Origin: Vibrio metschnikovii CIP 69.14
GTDB lineage: Bacteria > Pseudomonadota > Gammaproteobacteria > Enterobacterales > Vibrionaceae
Assembly: GCF_000176155.1 (NCBI RefSeq)
Contig: NZ_ACZO01000006.1
Span: 682,001 to 746,000, forward strand
Length of the DNA: 64,000 nt
Direction of reading: 5' to 3'
The notes below the pieces were generated by a model. That model was not told where the DNA came from, did not search any database, and saw nothing but the letters and a program-made list of their open reading frames with translations. Position numbers and translations under genes: made by a program. The number at the start of each line of letters is the position of its first letter. Position 1 is the first letter of the stretch. Of the stretch, positions 22,584 to 33,785 are shown one piece after another.

Positions 22584-22616
22584 AACGCCACCTGTCCTGA
22601 ACTGTAGTAGCGAATG

Positions 22617-23294
22617 ATGAAAATTTTGATCGTAGAAGATGAAAAGAAAACCGGCGATTATTTACAGCAAGGGTTAAGTGAAGCCGGTTTTGTGGTTGAT
22701 CTGGTACGTGATGGCATTGATGGATTACATCTGGCATTAACAGGAGAGTATGACCTCTTAATATTGGATGTTATGTTGCCGGGACTGGATGGGTGGGGTG
22801 TGTTAAAGACGATTCGTCGTGCTGAATATCATATGCCGGTGCTGTTTTTGACCGCGCGGGATGCCGTTGAAGATCGTGTGCATGGGCTTGAATTGGGTGC
22901 TGATGATTACCTCATCAAGCCTTTTGCTTTTTCCGAATTGCTTGCTCGAGTTCGGACCTTATCGAGAAGAGGGAAAACGCAAAAGATCGATCACTTACAG
23001 GCAGCAGACTTAGCGCTTGATCTGGTGAAACGTCGAGTGATACGAAATGGACAACGAATTGATTTAACAGCGAAAGAATTTATTTTATTAGAGTTATTAT
23101 TGCGCCGACGAGGTGAAGTTTTATCGCGCTCGTTTATTGCTTCTCAGGTATGGGATATGAATTTTGATAGCGATACGAATGTGATTGAAGTGGCTGTGCG
23201 TCGTTTACGAGCGAAAGTTGATGACCCCTTTGAGCCAAAGTTAATTCGTACTGTTCGAGGAATGGGGTACGTGCTTGAGGTTGACGAGACGTGA
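22617..23294 (+). CDS. Heavy-metal response regulator, CusR/CopR-like
   Basis: A 225-residue OmpR/PhoB-family regulator. The receiver (1-115) has acidic residues Glu7 and Asp8, the phosphorylation site Asp51 in [14 protein letters not shown] and Lys in IKPF. The winged-helix DNA-binding domain follows (about 125-222), ending [11 protein letters not shown]. The sequence is typical of the copper/silver (CusR, CopR) group. The ATG at 22617 starts the canonical MKILIVEDE; the preceding ATG at 22614 is equally open. It overlaps the kinase gene by 4 bases (GTGA). No efflux genes are adjacent. Confidence 0.88.
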
Positions 23295-24676
23295 AATTGG
23301 CGCAATCTCTAACCGTTAGACTGGCGGTGTTGTTTGCTCTGATGGCGGGTGGACTATTGATCATCATGGGCGTGTTAATTGAGCGCTCAGTGTCCCTCCA
23401 TTTCGATGAATTAGATAGCCATGAGCTAGCAACCAAGCTGGCTACTGTAGAAAGACTCCTATCGACGGCGAATTCTCATCACTCACTTGACACCTTATCG
23501 CCCCGAATCAATGAGATCCTTGTAGGGCATGATAATGTTGCCATTTTGATCGCTATTGCCGATCAGCAATGGCAATATGCTCTGCGTGCTGAACACCTTG
23601 AGCCGATTAAGACTCATTTAGTCACCTCTAAGCAACCTTTTCTCAAATGGAGCGATGCCTCTGGGGCGGATTTTATTGGTATCGCCACTCAGTTTTCTGT
23701 GTCATTACCAGAGCTTAGCGACGTTAATGTCTTGGTCGGGTTAGATATCTCTCATCACGTGCATTTTCTTAATACCCTACGCTTACAATTAGGCATCGGG
23801 ATTGGTATTGCAACGTTATTTGCGGCGATGCTCGGCTGGATGGCCGCCCATAAAGGCTTAGCGCCAATGCGAACGATTGCTGGTACAGCAAGGCGATTAT
23901 CGGCACATAGCCTTGGGGAACGGTTATCAACAGAAGAGGCACCCAGCGAGATACAAGAACTGGTGCAAGCTTTTAATGGCATGTTAGAGCGTCTCGAACA
24001 GTCGTTTCGTCGTTTGAATGAATTTTCTGCCGATATCGCTCATGAGTTACGCTCACCAGTCTCCAACTTGATGACCGAGACACAAGTGGCGTTATCACGC
24101 TCTCGCTCGGCAGAGGAGTACCAAGAAGCCTTACATTCTAACCTAGAAGAATTTGAACGCTTAGCCCGGATGATTGCTGATATGCTGTTTTTGGCTAAGG
24201 CTGATAATGGCATGCTGCCGAAACCTGAGCAAAATGTTGCACTTGAATCAGAAGTGCGCGCTCTGTTTGAATTTTACGAAGCTTTGGCAGAAGAAAAGGG
24301 CTTAACGATGAAGTTGGTCGGTAAGGGCTCCGTGATCGGTGATCGCTTAATGTTACGAAGAGCACTGTCTAATCTTTTATCTAACGCGATTCGACATACT
24401 CCCGCTGAACACGTGATTACGGTGACGATAAAAAGGGTTAATCATCAGGTTCACCTTCTAGTGAGTAATCCGGGAGAGCCAATCCCTCGCGATCATATCC
24501 CCTTGGTGTTTGAGCGCTTTCATCGAGGCGATCCTTCTCGTCTACGTCAAGGCGATGGCTCTGGTCTCGGTCTTTCTATTACCCGTTCAATCGTTGAGGC
24601 TCATCAAGGTGAGATTATACTGGAGTCTGATCCCCAGCAAACGACATTCACGATACGGCTCCCCGCTCATCCATAA
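23291..24676 (+). CDS. Heavy-metal sensor histidine kinase, CusS-like
   Basis: A 461-residue inner-membrane kinase with two transmembrane helices (about 10-32 and 160-182) around a periplasmic sensor loop. A HAMP segment follows (about 185-237), then the H-box [10 protein letters not shown] with phospho-acceptor His251, and the ATPase with N-box [19 protein letters not shown]-box. It starts with GTG overlapping the regulator stop, so the pair is translationally coupled. The sensor loop is about 125 residues; no obvious metal-binding cluster can be pinned down by eye. It probably controls the DUF305 gene upstream. Confidence 0.88.
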
Positions 24677-24770: not shown

Positions 24771-27575
24771 TTAATGTTCAATCAGCTGTAGGCCATACGG
24801 TAAAGCATCACCAAAGACACGTTTTGACTCACTGGCAGAAAGCTCACTGACGCTATCGACCAGAGCTACCCATGCATCCGGAACCTTACTGTGTTTCAGT
24901 TTGCTTAACACATCGCGACGCATGGAATCACTAATATCAAACAAGCGATCACCCGTTTTACGGCACATCATCACGGTGGCAAAAGCAATCATTGGTTCTT
25001 GTTGCCAGTTTTGCTCAAGCAGAGTGGGTAACCATTGTTCTGCTTGTTCTCGCGCAATAACGGTGTGTTGGCTGCCATAAAATAGACTGCGTGAGGCAAG
25101 TCGGCCAAATGCCCACCAGTGAGCCTGAGCGAAGTTGGTTTGGTTGAGGGCTTTATTCAAAAACCAAGACGCGAGCAGAACTTTATCTTCAACATCCAGG
25201 TGTTCTAACGATGCAGCAAGGCGCACCATCGCTTCGTAGCCCATCTCTTGCGCTGCTTTCGCCGTTTGTGGGTTTTTCATCGCGCCGGGATGCAAGTATT
25301 TGGCAATGTCGGCTAGAATTTGCTCTTGTTGGCTTTGGTTTAATCCCCCTGCAATTCGCCTCCAAAATACCCACCAATCGCTCCAACCTTGTTGATTTTG
25401 AAACTGAATACCTTGCTGATAGAGACCCCATACCTGATCGATGCGCCATGGGTCGGTGCTATCACCAAAACCTGGACGTAATGTAAACCCAGCCAAGCGT
25501 AGCCAATGTTTTTCGTGTGCTTCTGAGCGACGGCGACGTTTACGTCCTTGGGCTAATACATCAAATAAATGGCGCAGGGTGGTGAAATCCCATTCATCGC
25601 GTTTGCCCAGTTGTTTCTCAAGGGTTTTGGTTAAGGTTTTTATCTCGTTATTCGCTGCACTTTTGGTATTACCGCTGTACAAACGGGCGATTAAAGCTTT
25701 GCATTCCGATAAGCGAGGATGAAGAGAGGCTGGTTGCTGCATCGCTTCGGTTTGCTGACGAACTTCGAATTCTAATGCCCAGCGTTTACTTTCATCGTCG
25801 ACGTGAACACACTCTATTTTCAATGTACCAACTTCGGTTAGCTGACAGGCCAGTTGTACTTCAATGCGCTCTTTTTGGTTGGCATGTAAAACGGCCCCTT
25901 CACCTTCGAGGCTGGTAATGTAGGGCGGTAAAGGCGTAAATCGTTCCGGTTCAATGTTGATCAGCATCCCATTTTGTATTGGCGCTTTTTCATCAATCGT
26001 ATCGTAACTGGAGGTAAGAAGGTTAAAACGGACAGGCTCGCCTAACGTTAACGAGAAGCGCCGACCAGTTAAGCGGATCTCTTGCCCTTCTTCACTGCCT
26101 TTAGCGAGTAAACACAATGCTTTGCCTAAATGATTCTTTTCGGGAAGATGTAAAAAATACGAGCGAGCAGATCCGCCGCCAATTTTCAGCTGTGCACCAC
26201 GTCGAGCCTTGGCAAACGCGACAGCACCAAGCGCTACGGCTAAATCAGGGTGAGGGTTATCTAATACGGTTATTGGCGCCCCTCGCCAATCGGTCAGCAA
26301 TTGGGTAAGACGTTCGGTAATTAATGGACTATTAAAAACCCCACCGTTGAGCAGCAACCCAACGGGTATTGCTGGCTGTGTGGTATCGAGCTGATTGAGT
26401 GCTGATAGCGCAACAGATTGATGCTGGTGAAGAAATTCGGCGACATGTTTACTCACTGCAGGGTCAGCGACGTAGGGCAAGCCAAATTCGACCACCGCAC
26501 GACGCCGCTTATCAGGCAGCCGTGAAAATTCAGACCGTGGAAAGAATCCTTCTAAAGCAATCTGATGCACTTCTTGGCGAGTGAGCGAGACGCTTTTACT
26601 GCCACCGAGCAATTTAGATCCACTGCCTAATAGGGTGATTTTTACATTGTCTGGGGGATTGGTAGACAGCAGTTGCTCTTTTGCTTGCCGTGTTTGTTGA
26701 ATCAATTTACTCAGGCTTGCAGCGCTCAGCTTTTGGTTCGTATTGAAATGTTGTTCCGCAAGATGGGCGAGGGCGAGGTCTACGTTATCACCACCGAGCA
26801 TGAGGTGCTCACCGACACCAACACGATTGAGGATTAAACTTTGCTGGTGTTTGGCTTCAATTAAGCTCAAATCGGTGGTGCCGCCGCCGACATCACAAAC
26901 TAAAATCAAAGGGACTTCGCTCAGTTGCTCACTGGCGGTAGCGGAATGACGAGTATACCAATCGTAGCAAACGGCTTGTGGCTCTTCTAATAAAATGATG
27001 GTAGATAAACCTGCCAATTGCGCAGCATCGAGGGTGAGTTGACGGGCTGTTTCATCAAATGAGGCTGGCACGGTGACTACCACTTCTTGATTTTCTAACC
27101 GATCTCCCGGATGGCGGTGATTCCACGCTTGACGGATGTGGTTGAGATAACTCGCACTGGCAATCACTGGTGAGACTTTATCGACATCACTCGCTCCAGC
27201 CCAAGGTAAAATGGCGGAGTGTCGGTCGACACTCGGATGAGACAGCCAGCTTTTGGCACTCACCACTTGGCGACCTTCGACTTTGGCACCGAGCGCTCGG
27301 GCCCATTCACCAATGATTACCTGAGGAAGATCGCCACTGACCGGTTGATGTTCCCAAGGTAGGGTAAGATCGGCGGCGTTGACTTGCGCTGCTGCTGGGT
27401 GATAGCGAAAAGAAGGCAATAACGGTCTACGCACCACTTCACCGGGCCCAATTAATTGATCGATCTCGAACAAAGCCACGGGTGAATGTAATAAATCCGT
27501 GGTTAGCTCGCAATAAGCAACGACAGTATTGGTGGTGCCTAAGTCAATGCCCACCAGAAAACGAGGAGATGTCAT
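24771..27575 (-). CDS. Large divergent Hsp70 with C-terminal DUF3731-type domain
   Basis: A 934-residue protein. The N-terminal actin-like ATPase shows phosphate-1 VGIDLGTTNTVVAY, phosphate-2 LVCDVGGGTTDLSL and the adenosine motif LLLNGGVFNSPL. A beta-rich region at about 560-630 (TEVGTLKIEC) stands where the Hsp70 substrate domain would begin, but the DnaK lid is missing. Instead about 290 mostly helical, Trp-rich residues follow (such as RIDQVWGLYQQG and WWVFWRRIAGG), as in Hsp70-plus-DUF3731 proteins. The ATG at 27575 has AAGGG upstream. It is third in an operon with another Hsp70 and a DUF2760 protein; its partner and client are unknown. Confidence 0.8.
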   Translation of the reverse strand: MTSPRFLVGIDLGTTNTVVAYCELTTDLLHSPVALFEIDQLIGPGEVVRRPLLPSFRYHPAAAQVNAADLTLPWEHQPVSGDLPQVIIGEWARALGAKVEGRQVVSAKSWLSHPSVDRHSAILPWAGASDVDKVSPVIASASYLNHIRQAWNHRHPGDRLENQEVVVTVPASFDETARQLTLDAAQLAGLSTIILLEEPQAVCYDWYTRHSATASEQLSEVPLILVCDVGGGTTDLSLIEAKHQQSLILNRVGVGEHLMLGGDNVDLALAHLAEQHFNTNQKLSAASLSKLIQQTRQAKEQLLSTNPPDNVKITLLGSGSKLLGGSKSVSLTRQEVHQIALEGFFPRSEFSRLPDKRRRAVVEFGLPYVADPAVSKHVAEFLHQHQSVALSALNQLDTTQPAIPVGLLLNGGVFNSPLITERLTQLLTDWRGAPITVLDNPHPDLAVALGAVAFAKARRGAQLKIGGGSARSYFLHLPEKNHLGKALCLLAKGSEEGQEIRLTGRRFSLTLGEPVRFNLLTSSYDTIDEKAPIQNGMLINIEPERFTPLPPYITSLEGEGAVLHANQKERIEVQLACQLTEVGTLKIECVHVDDESKRWALEFEVRQQTEAMQQPASLHPRLSECKALIARLYSGNTKSAANNEIKTLTKTLEKQLGKRDEWDFTTLRHLFDVLAQGRKRRRRSEAHEKHWLRLAGFTLRPGFGDSTDPWRIDQVWGLYQQGIQFQNQQGWSDWWVFWRRIAGGLNQSQQEQILADIAKYLHPGAMKNPQTAKAAQEMGYEAMVRLAASLEHLDVEDKVLLASWFLNKALNQTNFAQAHWWAFGRLASRSLFYGSQHTVIAREQAEQWLPTLLEQNWQQEPMIAFATVMMCRKTGDRLFDISDSMRRDVLSKLKHSKVPDAWVALVDSVSELSASESKRVFGDALPYGLQLIEH

Positions 27576-27634
27576 GACAACCCTTTTCATGAATAAAAAC
27601 GACACTCTGAAAGTGCCGTTTTTGTAATGGATGA

Positions 27635-29536
27635 CTAAGCGGTCGGTTGCGCTTCTTCACGGACATTGAATTCAACATGCCACGTTTGGCCATTATCAGC
27701 GGCGATGGCCTCAAGGCGTAACGTTCCTAACTCAGTGACTCGTGCAGCTAAGGTGACAGGGACAATTTCACCTTCGCGACGGCCTTCTGATACCGGTAAA
27801 GTGACTTGGATCTCCGGTAGTTCTTCTAATTCGTCATCTTGCCAATGATCCAGATGGGTGCCTGCGGCATCGTCACGGCGAGTTGTTGAGCCAAAAAACT
27901 GGAAGTTAACCGGTTGACCAATCACCAAACCAAAAGTTTGGCTGGGGACGTCGACGCTAGAGCCTTCTTCCATACCAAACGGTGCAACACAGAGTGCTTC
28001 CATTGGCGGAGCCATACCGGGAATTGCTGGCATCGCACTTTCAATACCCACGTAGTAACTCGAAGCTATACCACCACGAATACGCACCCCTTGACCGCGG
28101 CGAACCACACCATAATAAGCGGCACCTCTGGCAACGGCTAAGTCTAAGTCAACACCCGTCAGGCGTTTAGCGATTGGGGCGTTGGCTTCGACTAGCCATT
28201 GATTAATGGTGTCTTGCAAACGTTCAGCTAAGAGAGAGGATTTTAACACTCCGCCATTAAACAATATCGCGGTTGGCTTAATAAAAGCGTTTGACGGTGA
28301 TGATTGGCCGGGCATGCCACCAAGAAACGGATTGAATTCTTGGTCTGTTGCCTCTGTGGTTGCGTTGGCTTGTTTGGCAAGAAACGCGGCAATATGGCGA
28401 GTAATACCCGCATCTTGCGCATAAGGTAGGCCCATTTGGGTTAATGCGCCACGGCTACGTTGCTGCGGATGATCATTAATCGTCACTTTCGGGAAGAAGC
28501 CGTCAATCAGCATTTGCTGAACGTCATCTTGTGTTAACTCGGTTTTCAAGGTGCTACCGAGCAGTTTGGATCCGCGACTTGGCACAACAATCGGCATCGC
28601 TTGTCGTTGACTATCATTCAATAACGCTTCTTTGGCATCGCGGCAAGCGTGAGTCATCGCTTGCACTTGCCAAGGTTGTAGATCTTTACCTTCTTTGGCC
28701 AGCTTCATTTTTAAGTGGTAGGCAAGAGCGAGATCCATATTATCGCCACCGAGCAAAATATGCTCACCGACGGCGATGCGTTGTAAACTTAGTGTTCCTT
28801 CATCTTCGGTCACTTCAACCAGTGATAGGTCGGTAGTACCACCCCCAATATCCACCACAAGTACGATATCGCCGACATTGACCTGATCACGCCATTGATC
28901 ATGACTATTATCGATCCAGCTATACAGTGCGGCTTGAGGCTCTTCGAGTAGGGTCAAATGGGTTAAGCCAATATTCCGCGCCGCTTCAGCCGTGAGCTCT
29001 CGCGCTGCCGGATCGAACGAGGCGGGTACGGTGATGGTTACTTCTTGATCACAGAGCGGATGTTCGGGATGAGTGTGATCCCACGCTTGTTTTAAGTGCT
29101 CAAGGTAAAGTTCGGTGGCGCGTAGGGGAGAGATTTTCTCCACTTCTTCGGGACTGCCAGCAGGTAAAAATGCTTCACGACGATTCACACCGCCATGGCA
29201 TAACCAAGATTTCGCACTGGCCACCAAGCGAATCGGTGTTTTAGCGCCAAGGTTGCGGGCAATCGCTCCTACTAAGGCATTGGGTTTATCTGTCCATGGC
29301 AATACACGAGACGCTGGATTCATTTCGTGTTCATGGGGTTGATAGACGAAAGAACCAAGCTGATTGAGCGATTCGACGCTACCCGGTGCGCTGAGCTGAG
29401 GAATCGGCATCACTTGCACACTCGCGTGTTCGTTGCGTGTATCACTATAGGCAAGCACACAGTGAGTCGTACCTAAATCAATACCGACACTAAAAGTTGC
29501 TGATGGTTGCGTGGAGAGATCGTGTTGATGTTCCAT
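27635..29536 (-). CDS. Divergent Hsp70-family ATPase
   Basis: A 633-residue protein with an Hsp70 ATPase domain: phosphate-1 VGIDLGTTHCVLAY, phosphate-2 LVVDIGGGTTDLSL, and adenosine site ILFNGGVLKSSLLAERL. The C-terminal ~130 residues are beta-rich and end in a block (TELGTLRLEAIA, WHVEFNVRE) shared with the neighbouring larger Hsp70, so the two are paralogues. A canonical DnaK helical lid and EEVD-like tail are absent. It starts by a one-base TAATG overlap with the DUF2760 gene. No dnaJ or grpE lies nearby. Function is unknown; an ATP-driven complex with its two operon partners is likely. Confidence 0.82.
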   Translation of the reverse strand: MEHQHDLSTQPSATFSVGIDLGTTHCVLAYSDTRNEHASVQVMPIPQLSAPGSVESLNQLGSFVYQPHEHEMNPASRVLPWTDKPNALVGAIARNLGAKTPIRLVASAKSWLCHGGVNRREAFLPAGSPEEVEKISPLRATELYLEHLKQAWDHTHPEHPLCDQEVTITVPASFDPAARELTAEAARNIGLTHLTLLEEPQAALYSWIDNSHDQWRDQVNVGDIVLVVDIGGGTTDLSLVEVTEDEGTLSLQRIAVGEHILLGGDNMDLALAYHLKMKLAKEGKDLQPWQVQAMTHACRDAKEALLNDSQRQAMPIVVPSRGSKLLGSTLKTELTQDDVQQMLIDGFFPKVTINDHPQQRSRGALTQMGLPYAQDAGITRHIAAFLAKQANATTEATDQEFNPFLGGMPGQSSPSNAFIKPTAILFNGGVLKSSLLAERLQDTINQWLVEANAPIAKRLTGVDLDLAVARGAAYYGVVRRGQGVRIRGGIASSYYVGIESAMPAIPGMAPPMEALCVAPFGMEEGSSVDVPSQTFGLVIGQPVNFQFFGSTTRRDDAAGTHLDHWQDDELEELPEIQVTLPVSEGRREGEIVPVTLAARVTELGTLRLEAIAADNGQTWHVEFNVREEAQPTA

Positions 29537-30168
29537 TATAGCTCCACCTCTGCTGGGGCAATGATTGAGGGATCATAATGCTCGGCCAGTTTCGGCAAGT
29601 GTAGTGCGCTGGCTTTCCACCCTTTGTGGATCAACGTACCAGTAAACGGTGCTTGTCCGGTCACGTTGCCGATCAAACGAATCGCTTGCGAGTTGAACCC
29701 TTGTTCAACGGTGATGCGGGTCTCTTCTTCTTCAGTACGAATTGGCTCTAACGTTAAGTATTCTTTGAGAACTTTTTGACCGCCCGAATGGATAACGCGA
29801 GCCGCTGCACCGACTTCTTCGTCAGAGAATGCGCTGAGTTCTTCTTGTAAAAAGTCAATGAAGCGGGCTTCTTTTTGCAAAATGGCCAGCAATTGCAGTG
29901 CCGAGTCAGTGGATGTGGTGGCAAGCTTGGATTCTACTTCGACCACTTTTTCGACGATTTTTTCTACTTCAACAATCTTTTCGACTTCAATAATTTTCTC
30001 CACCGGTTTTTCCACTTCGACGATCTTCTCAATCGGCTTTTCAACGATGGTTTCTATCACACGCGGTTTACGAAGAATCAGTAATAACAGAGCAAATAAG
30101 CTGAAAATAGTAAGGACAGCATGGAGCATGTCGACGGTGGTTGGTATAGCGCTTAAATCGAAGTTCAT
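29536..30168 (-). CDS. Membrane-anchored DUF2760 protein with Val-Glu-Lys repeats
   Basis: A 210-residue protein. A single transmembrane helix (about residues 14-33, LHAVLTIFSLFALLLLIL) is followed by a charged linker of imperfect repeats based on (I/V)VE(K/V)xVEKI at about 40-78. A globular DUF2760 domain (about 88-205) follows, with EARFIDFLQEEL and GQAPFTGTLIHKGW. The most likely topology is a short N-terminal tail with the DUF2760 domain in the cytosol, held off the membrane by the linker. It is first in the operon with two Hsp70 genes, so it may tether them to the membrane. Confidence 0.82.
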   Translation of the reverse strand: MNFDLSAIPTTVDMLHAVLTIFSLFALLLLILRKPRVIETIVEKPIEKIVEVEKPVEKIIEVEKIVEVEKIVEKVVEVESKLATTSTDSALQLLAILQKEARFIDFLQEELSAFSDEEVGAAARVIHSGGQKVLKEYLTLEPIRTEEEETRITVEQGFNSQAIRLIGNVTGQAPFTGTLIHKGWKASALHLPKLAEHYDPSIIAPAEVEL

Positions 30169-33302: not shown

Positions 33303-33345
33303 AAGCGAAGGTCGCGTTAATTCGAGAACTTCGCTTTATTTTTTT
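33303..33345 (+). terminator. Second terminator hairpin, overlapping the end of the TerB-like gene
   Basis: The stem AAGCGAAG / CTTCGCTT with an 18-base loop is followed by TATTTTTTT. The stem abuts the stop codon of the minus-strand TerB-like gene, and it would end rightward transcription from the receptor gene. Confidence 0.5.
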
Positions 33346-33785
33346 GGATTAACAACCATCAGTTTTGCGCGAATAAACTGACTGTGGTCAACGTACAATA
33401 ACTCAGCCGTTTTACGGATCACCGCATCTTCTAGTGGATCAATCTCACCATCCGCATGGGCAACTTCCCACATCGCTTTTATTAACTCAAATCGTTTGCC
33501 TTGGGTTAATTCTCGTAGCTGAGAGGTAAATTCATACAATGATGCCGATTGACGTATTTGTTGCTCAGCACGGCTAATCAAAGCTTGTGCTTCACTGTCG
33601 TCTATTGCAAGTAAACGTTGCAGTAAGGCTAGCTTCGCTTGTCGTTCTGTGGGGGTTATTTTTTGATCTGAACCGGCGACCTCACTCAATAAACAAGCGA
33701 TTGCAAAATTAGGGCTAGGAGAAGGTTGACTTAGATCGTGCCCGTCGAGGAGCTGTTTAAATAAGGCGGTAATAGTATTGAACAT
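33336..33785 (-). CDS. TerB-family protein
   Basis: A 149-residue cytosolic helical protein. The TerB/DjlA-type pattern is visible as two paired motifs: ACLLSEVAGSDQKITPTERQ and MWEVAHADGEIDPLEDAVIR, each with the acidic metal-binding-like D/E residues. TerB-fold proteins occur in tellurite-resistance and stress modules, but single-gene relatives like this one are common and uncharacterised. AAAGG lies 8 bases before the ATG. No other ter gene is near. The next minus-strand gene upstream encodes a small acidic protein. Confidence 0.8.
   Translation of the reverse strand: MFNTITALFKQLLDGHDLSQPSPSPNFAIACLLSEVAGSDQKITPTERQAKLALLQRLLAIDDSEAQALISRAEQQIRQSASLYEFTSQLRELTQGKRFELIKAMWEVAHADGEIDPLEDAVIRKTAELLYVDHSQFIRAKLMVVNPKK

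Follow-up and report, generated by a model that had tools for sequence, protein, structure and literature searches.

Do a putative membrane protein of the DUF2760 family and the two unusual Hsp70s encoded beside it work as one chaperone machine? The question is raised by a stretch of 64,000 nucleotides from Vibrio metschnikovii CIP 69.14 (contig NZ_ACZO01000006.1, positions 682,001 to 746,000), hereafter the window, which belongs to a genome of 3.8 Mb. An earlier note, made from the sequence letters, described a DUF2760-Hsp70-Hsp70(DUF3731) arrangement here and proposed a dedicated ATP-driven complex at the inner membrane. The arrangement itself was confirmed, as the locus consists of three minus-strand open reading frames (ORFs) whose Pfam matches agree with these names:

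29536-30168, minus strand: DUF2760 gene (D), 210 amino acids (aa), identified by a PF10816 match, a structural model and a 69-row alignment
27635-29536, minus strand: Hsp70-1 (H1), 633 aa, identified by PF00012, motifs and alignment
24771-27575, minus strand: Hsp70-2 (H2), 934 aa when read from the favoured ATG, with a model at a predicted local distance difference test score (pLDDT) of 82

Judged from their sequences, D, H1 and H2 could together make up one dedicated Hsp70 machine on the cytoplasmic side of the inner membrane, a proposal that we hold to be about evenly balanced between right and wrong. The remark in the earlier note that these families have no defined function agrees with our literature search, which found none naming DUF2760, DUF3731, PF10816 or PF12531 among the papers covered.

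Co-occurrence of the three genes

Two genome samples were searched for both families. In the phylum sample (299 genomes), DUF2760 was detected in 22 genomes, DUF3731 in 21 and both in 21; the corresponding numbers in the class sample (369 genomes) were 13, 14 and 13. The misfit of the phylum sample (G026) has D and H1, the latter ending 84 bases from a contig end, and in that of the class sample (G461) H1 lies 75 bases from one. When the samples were merged, either family was present in 34 distinct genomes and both in 32, the window's genome (G000) and G082 belonging to both samples. The hypergeometric probability of the overlap among the 299 genomes was ~2e-31, or 2e-13 when counted by genus, with kinship ignored in this calculation. 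Furthermore, a search with an H1 profile (E up to 1e-40) found H1/H2-type Hsp70s in those 22 of the 299 genomes that have DUF2760 and in no others, and neither DUF2760 nor DUF3731 was found in 14 control genomes, including Escherichia coli. The earlier note had named DUF2760 commonly occurring without both Hsp70s as telling against its proposal, and this was not observed; 21/22 and 13/14 carriers have both DUF2760 and DUF3731.

Gene order was compared in the best 80 of 234 loci, picked by DUF2760. H1 comes next after D in every one of the 80, and H2 is found within the same locus in 68, being complete in 66 and cut by contig ends in L052 and L089. H2 is out of view in the other 12, among which the contig of L090 ends inside H1 and that of L106 ~500 bases past it. 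For all 13 loci that were searched further (these 12 and L089), DUF3731 was found elsewhere in the genome. The two families also lie on separate contigs in three draft genomes (G053, G486 and G586) and ~7 kb apart in G082. This retention without adjacency is the best evidence for a functional link, and on the genomes sampled the trio appears near-obligate, its genes being kept as a set. Its carriers include numerous Vibrio as well as more remote bacteria.

The same data bear on a simpler explanation, in which the genes are a co-transferred cassette, adjacent and mobile, with each Hsp70 a free soluble protein and no shared machine. Such a cassette would account for the patchy spread in the class sample, where DUF2760 and DUF3731 occur in 12 and 13 of 272 genera, and for the occurrence on plasmids. 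Among 72,556 plasmid records, DUF2760 was found in 11 and DUF3731 in 10, and the full trio stands in order on 6/7 of the plasmid regions examined (of eleven). Two complete trios are carried by Bradyrhizobium plasmids predicted to be conjugative, and on one of these, pCB82_1 (L274:8001-16263), the trio is followed by groES-groEL. DUF2760 was not found in phage records. However, if the genes were no more than a cassette, losses would be expected once they are apart, so the persistence of DUF3731 elsewhere in 13/13 genomes (a count that includes the contig-end cases L089, L090 and L106) weighs against it, as does the finding that 0/299 genomes have H1/H2-type Hsp70s and no DUF2760. We consider the cassette explanation improbable.

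In a tree of 34 Hsp70s, H1 (support 100/98) and H2 (weak, 70/28) fall together, far from the DnaK and HscA-type rows, with a warning from the tree program that long branches may mislead. By eye, the branch orders inside H1 and H2 largely agree. In loci of different genomes (L080, L084, L218 and L223), the same three neighbour families lie near the D-H1 half and near the detached H2 half. Two of them resemble surE and pcm by eye, and the pattern looks as though a single ancestral locus had been split.

Layout and junctions of the locus

The two junctions differ in kind:

29534-29538, minus strand: TAATG stop/start overlap between D and H1, read in the sequence
27595-27623, minus strand: terminator-like hairpin of 13 pairs with a T run in the H1-H2 gap, found by hairpin scan

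The tight junctions described in the earlier note were recovered between D and H1, which overlap by 1 base in 54/80 rows and by 4 bases in 5/80 (the window locus is included twice, giving 53/79 without the copy, and H1 starts were picked by a script). On this sequence evidence D and H1 appear tightly coupled. The description did not extend to H1 and H2, which are separated by the hairpin. Terminator-like hairpins with a T run were present in 30/66 H1-H2 gaps when 0.6 were expected from single-base shuffles under a strict scan, another feature that the cassette explanation would accommodate. H2 may be attenuated or transcribed separately in many Vibrionaceae. In a separate consensus scan of the region, the 27595-27623 hairpin was not among the results, and the region contains four sigma-70-like sites, which is no excess over the mean of 6.5 in shuffles.

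The hairpin also bears on where H2 begins. The mechanically listed ORF starts at a GTG (27605; 944 aa), but because this codon sits within the hairpin and AAAAGGG precedes the ATG at 27575, the latter is probably the start.

The two Hsp70s

Beyond the shared ATPase part, H2 carries a large C-terminal domain:

25758-27569, minus strand: ATPase and beta substrate domain of H2, residues 3-606, by structural match to DnaK/BiP
24783-25526, minus strand: DUF3731 domain of H2 in the lid position (PF12531), all-helical and Trp-rich

PF00012 matches H1 with 72 bits and H2 with 73 bits, and PF12531 matches H2 with 324 bits (cut-off 25; residues 694-941). The H2 model aligns with DnaK/BiP at Z 29.6-35.4 in rows covering 463-477 residues, and its alignment with DnaK stops at the beta substrate domain (~residue 500-508). 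H1 aligns with H2 and stops approximately where the H2 beta domain does. A beta substrate domain is therefore predicted in H2 by the model and, by homology to H2, in H1. As the earlier note had stated, the DnaK-type helical lid is absent from both proteins, since H1 ends at this point and H2 continues with DUF3731. The ~290-residue Trp-rich helical extension that it had described was likewise evident, residues 622-921 of H2 being all helix in the model, with 13 Trp invariant across ten homologues. The DUF3731 profile had no match among solved chains up to E 1.

The phosphate, Lys and Glu motifs of Hsp70s have catalytic roles. Consistent with the intact ATPase cores of the earlier note, both sites look intact in sequence, as SAK[S/T]W, EEP and LGGDN.D were found in 80/80 H1 rows and 67/67 H2 rows. 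The GGT columns are invariant in the H1/H2 alignment, and GIDLGTT is present in all rows, having been a criterion for their selection. The 80 H1 rows are 79 distinct ones (the window locus is doubled as L003), with the H1 of L090 (cut) and of L102 (missed by the script) left out. Counts of motifs and control sites rest on motif searches instead of columns of the MAFFT alignment, in which the catalytic Lys loop and the linker are wrongly placed and the Vibrio DnaK numbering, beyond an early gap, runs one off that of E. coli. Stricter patterns miss some rows, namely VPASF (73/80 H1, 45/67 H2), NGG (59/80, 58/67), DLDLAVA (73/80, 22/67), GGGT.D.S (62/67 in H2) and K270 (76/80 in H1).

The control sites have diverged from those of DnaK, in which KRIINEP contains the J-domain contacts R167 and N170. 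The N170 position is Glu in 78/78 H1 and 67/67 H2 placed, and the R167 position is occupied by a residue other than Arg in 78/78 H1 (61 Thr) and 61/67 H2. A VLLLD-type interdomain linker, sought with one pattern in residues 400-520, was found in 0/80 H1 and 0/67 H2 rows. With the DnaK-type linker and the majority of the J-domain contacts missing, DnaJ-type control seems unlikely, above all for H1. Among the NCBIfam DnaK/HscA equivalog models, the best scores were 97 bits (H2) and 80 bits (H1), to HscA models whose cut-offs are 620 and 709.

These altered sites are also what would be expected if H1 and H2 were signalling or scaffolding ATPases, with DUF2760 reading their nucleotide state to control an envelope process. 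The precedent is StkA, an Hsp70-like protein of Myxococcus that reportedly acts in exopolysaccharide control. Data from V. cholerae point the same way. There, VC1373-1375 are presumed to be the trio from their gene order and their 'DnaK-related' names, and VC1375 would by gene order be the DUF2760 gene. The VC1375 promoter responds to the quorum-sensing regulator HapR, which activates it both in vivo and in vitro (PMC10328515), and VC1374 is listed, as one hit, among biofilm-repressed genes (PMC9201469) and is lower (log2 -2.7) in an untreated VC1639 sensor-kinase mutant than in the untreated wild type (PMC5636140). In addition, an iron/riboflavin study has VC1373 shifting ~two-fold (PMC5816637). 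Three results oppose the signalling explanation. A search allowing 3 mismatches did not find the HapR site of V. cholerae in the locus of V. metoecus or of V. mimicus; HapR-like sites upstream of 60 loci occurred at chance level (mean best 5.6 vs 5.5 in shuffled sequences; 8/60 reach 8, with ~12 expected); and the beta substrate domain is retained. Overall, we find a signalling or scaffolding role unlikely.

Some further observations concern the Hsp70s of these organisms. The window's genome has four PF00012 matches, corresponding to DnaK, H1, H2 and a 50-bit match that is probably MreB. A second long Hsp70, taken for HscA, scored 426-651 bits in 12 other genomes of the genus and was not seen in the window's genome, which may reflect a true loss or a gap in the assembly. 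The H1 of a V. mimicus contig (L052, 8588-10524) is broken into two overlapping frames, through either a frameshift or a sequencing error. Finally, a 'DnaK-related protein' with a carbonylated peptide is given in a Photobacterium study (PMC3706606); the peptide matches no D, H1 or H2 protein here, and it was not assigned to the trio.

The DUF2760 protein

D has three parts:

30076-30135, minus strand: single membrane helix, residues 12-31, from the model, hydropathy and K/R counts
29938-30063, minus strand: charged V/I-E-K repeat linker, residues 36-77, pLDDT <50 and predicted to be disordered
29539-29910, minus strand: DUF2760 domain, residues 87-210, with helices 87-101, 103-108 and 116-137 followed by short strands

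This anatomy is that of the earlier note, which had read D as a single-helix membrane protein with a repetitive charged linker and a DUF2760 domain. The Pfam match to PF10816 covers residues 87-209 with 184 bits (cut-off 25), and the AlphaFold2 model is confident from ~residue 84, with a mean pLDDT of 85-96 per ten-residue block from residue 91. A hydrophobic stretch was present in 100/113 homologues (113 rows, 111 distinct; L003 and L007 excluded), and K/R were commoner after than before it in 95/100. Because of this enrichment, D should be anchored N-out/C-in in most homologues, which would place the DUF2760 domain in the cytoplasm. The C-terminal tail is near-constant, with 52/113 homologues ending in IAPAEVEL, as D of the window does, and the twelve commonest endings (close variants) covering 109/113. 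The nearest relative of D among the matches listed, from which very near records may be missing, is in Vibrio injensis (92% identity).

The order of parts in the domain, helices and then a small beta domain, and a by-eye likeness of HKGW...APAEVEL to the end of GrpE prompted the idea that D is a membrane-anchored relative of this exchange factor. GrpE chains do appear in the fold list for D, low down at ranks 10 and 43 (Z 3.5 and 2.9) and amid unrelated rows. The sequence tests, however, gave no support. An hhalign comparison of DUF2760 with 30 GrpE proteins returned probabilities of 0.2% and 0.1% and a score of 10.8; the 60 column-shuffled GrpE decoys averaged 12.3, with 41/60 scoring equal or higher, and reversed GrpE scored 10.7. 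Searches of Pfam up to E 1 matched D to neither GrpE (PF01025) nor the J-domain of DnaJ. Kinship with GrpE is thus very unlikely, and the suggestion in the earlier note that accessory roles are built into the complex was not supported in its most concrete form, that of D as a GrpE-type exchange factor. Separately, nine genomes, with and without DUF2760, have an additional divergent GrpE match (53-72 bits).

Neighbouring genes and a fourth gene in methanotrophs

In 20 genomes, a protein of ~127 aa is encoded ahead of DUF2760, and these genomes cover every one of the 15 loci with Methylococcales, Methylococcaceae or a Methylo- genus in their listed names. Its N-terminus looks secreted by eye, the protein is probably exported on this sequence evidence, and two Cys are invariant in 13 rows. 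The gap to DUF2760, where given, is <=45 bases, with L101 (173 bases) as the exception. G427, a single-contig genome (L159:721-1872, L192), has the fourth gene and DUF2760 in one open frame, within which an internal start before DUF2760 is possible; a one-frame fusion fits an N-out, C-in DUF2760. Two fourth-gene proteins had no Pfam match up to E 0.01, and the best E of the profile against solved chains was 0.075. Of 29 genomes searched that carry genes of the trio, just two (G427 and G535) have the fourth gene, which is absent from the window's genome, and weak relatives occur in 3/175 genomes (G410, G424 and G430), none of which is a DUF2760 carrier of the class sample. For this reason we regard it as a lineage-specific partner at most.

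The fourth gene stood out as a neighbour in a comparison of 41 regions, in which an ABC-transporter-type ATPase cluster found in 10 loci was put down to chance, such ATPases forming a large family. Across 20 diverse regions, neighbour families recurred in at most 3 loci each, save one seven-locus cluster of long frames that was taken for antisense artefacts of GC-rich DNA. Within the window, a response regulator and histidine kinase pair (22614-24676, plus strand) is convergent with H2, and a TerB-domain protein (PF05099, 115 bits) is encoded near the trio (33336-33785).

A candidate Hsp70 machine at the inner membrane

The inner-membrane complex proposed in the earlier note gains from the co-occurrence of the genes, the membrane helix of D and the intact ATPase motifs. 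If D, H1 and H2 do form such a machine, D on its long charged tether would recruit H1, the more conserved Hsp70, and would stand in for DnaJ and GrpE in regulating the H1 ATPase cycle, possibly with the near-constant APAEVEL tail of D entering a substrate groove. H2 would join H1 in an Hsp70-Hsp70 heterodimer in which DUF3731 stands in for the lid, holding a partner or client. The client would probably be an inner-membrane protein or complex, and in methanotrophs the probably secreted protein might connect the machine to the periplasm. We are more doubtful of the whole picture taken together, that of a self-contained Hsp70 machine without DnaJ, GrpE, linker or lid, encoded by a three-gene mobile cassette, in which a linkerless Hsp70 heterodimer, driven by a membrane-anchored DUF2760 regulator, acts on inner-membrane clients with a periplasmic subunit in methanotrophs; it is offered tentatively.

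Several observations weigh against the proposed machine. The H1-H2 hairpin argues against a single even transcript, and Arg is retained at the DnaK R167 position in 6/67 H2. A clear membrane helix is missing from 13/113 D homologues, so the membrane tethering of the earlier note is supported for most homologues. Twelve of the 13 have a segment like SFFxRLxxAFxxF, which may be an amphipathic helix, and the remaining one (L167) had a shortened start assigned. In the fold search, no co-chaperone fold was recognised for D (Foldseek at best E 0.63, VIA at best Z 3.9), and the best E of its profile against solved chains was 0.27. No client is indicated, as conserved neighbours were not found outside the fourth gene of methanotrophs. 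Finally, the Thiodictyon plasmid pTs485 (L270) carries D and H1, and a search confined to the plasmid found no DUF3731 on it.

On pTs485 the D-H1 pair sits amid genes annotated as anti-phage, VapC toxin and TIR protein, an arrangement that would suit a phage-defence module. This is, however, a single case. With PADLOC, the ATPase domains gave weak partial matches at 23.5 and 27.7 bits and DUF2760 gave no match, and both families occur in all 7 same-genus genomes among the matches listed, more like a core gene set. A role in phage defence therefore seems highly improbable.

Several known systems resemble parts of the proposed machine. The specialised Hsp70 paralogues of Myxococcus are likewise bacterial and have envelope or membrane-protein roles (PMC11019930), and that text contains no word starting 'DUF'. 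The nearest working analogy, taken without kinship through a J-protein, may be the fungal Zuo1-Ssz1-Ssb triad, which also combines one tethering protein with two Hsp70s, one of them atypical (PMC8476630). In contrast to that triad, the tether here would be membrane-bound rather than ribosomal, and it has no J-domain match. H1 and H2 share with DnaK and HscA the ATPase fold and motifs and the beta substrate domain, as the Z scores of the H2 model reflect, but have neither a VLLLD linker nor a lid, are altered at most J-contact positions, score far under the equivalog cut-offs and stand apart in the 34-row tree. The exchange factor Hsp110/Sse1 is, like H2, an Hsp70-like protein with an altered C-terminal part, and it pairs with another Hsp70. 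Sse1 is among the Foldseek matches of the H2 model (ranks 40 and 47), whereas DUF3731 has no sequence counterpart among solved chains.

Hsp70s are generally taken to need their linker, their lid and control by J-proteins in order to function. A near-obligate bacterial trio with two intact-looking ATPases, without linker, lid and most J-contacts and with a membrane protein of its own, would be a test case from nature for the extent to which the Hsp70 cycle tolerates rebuilding.

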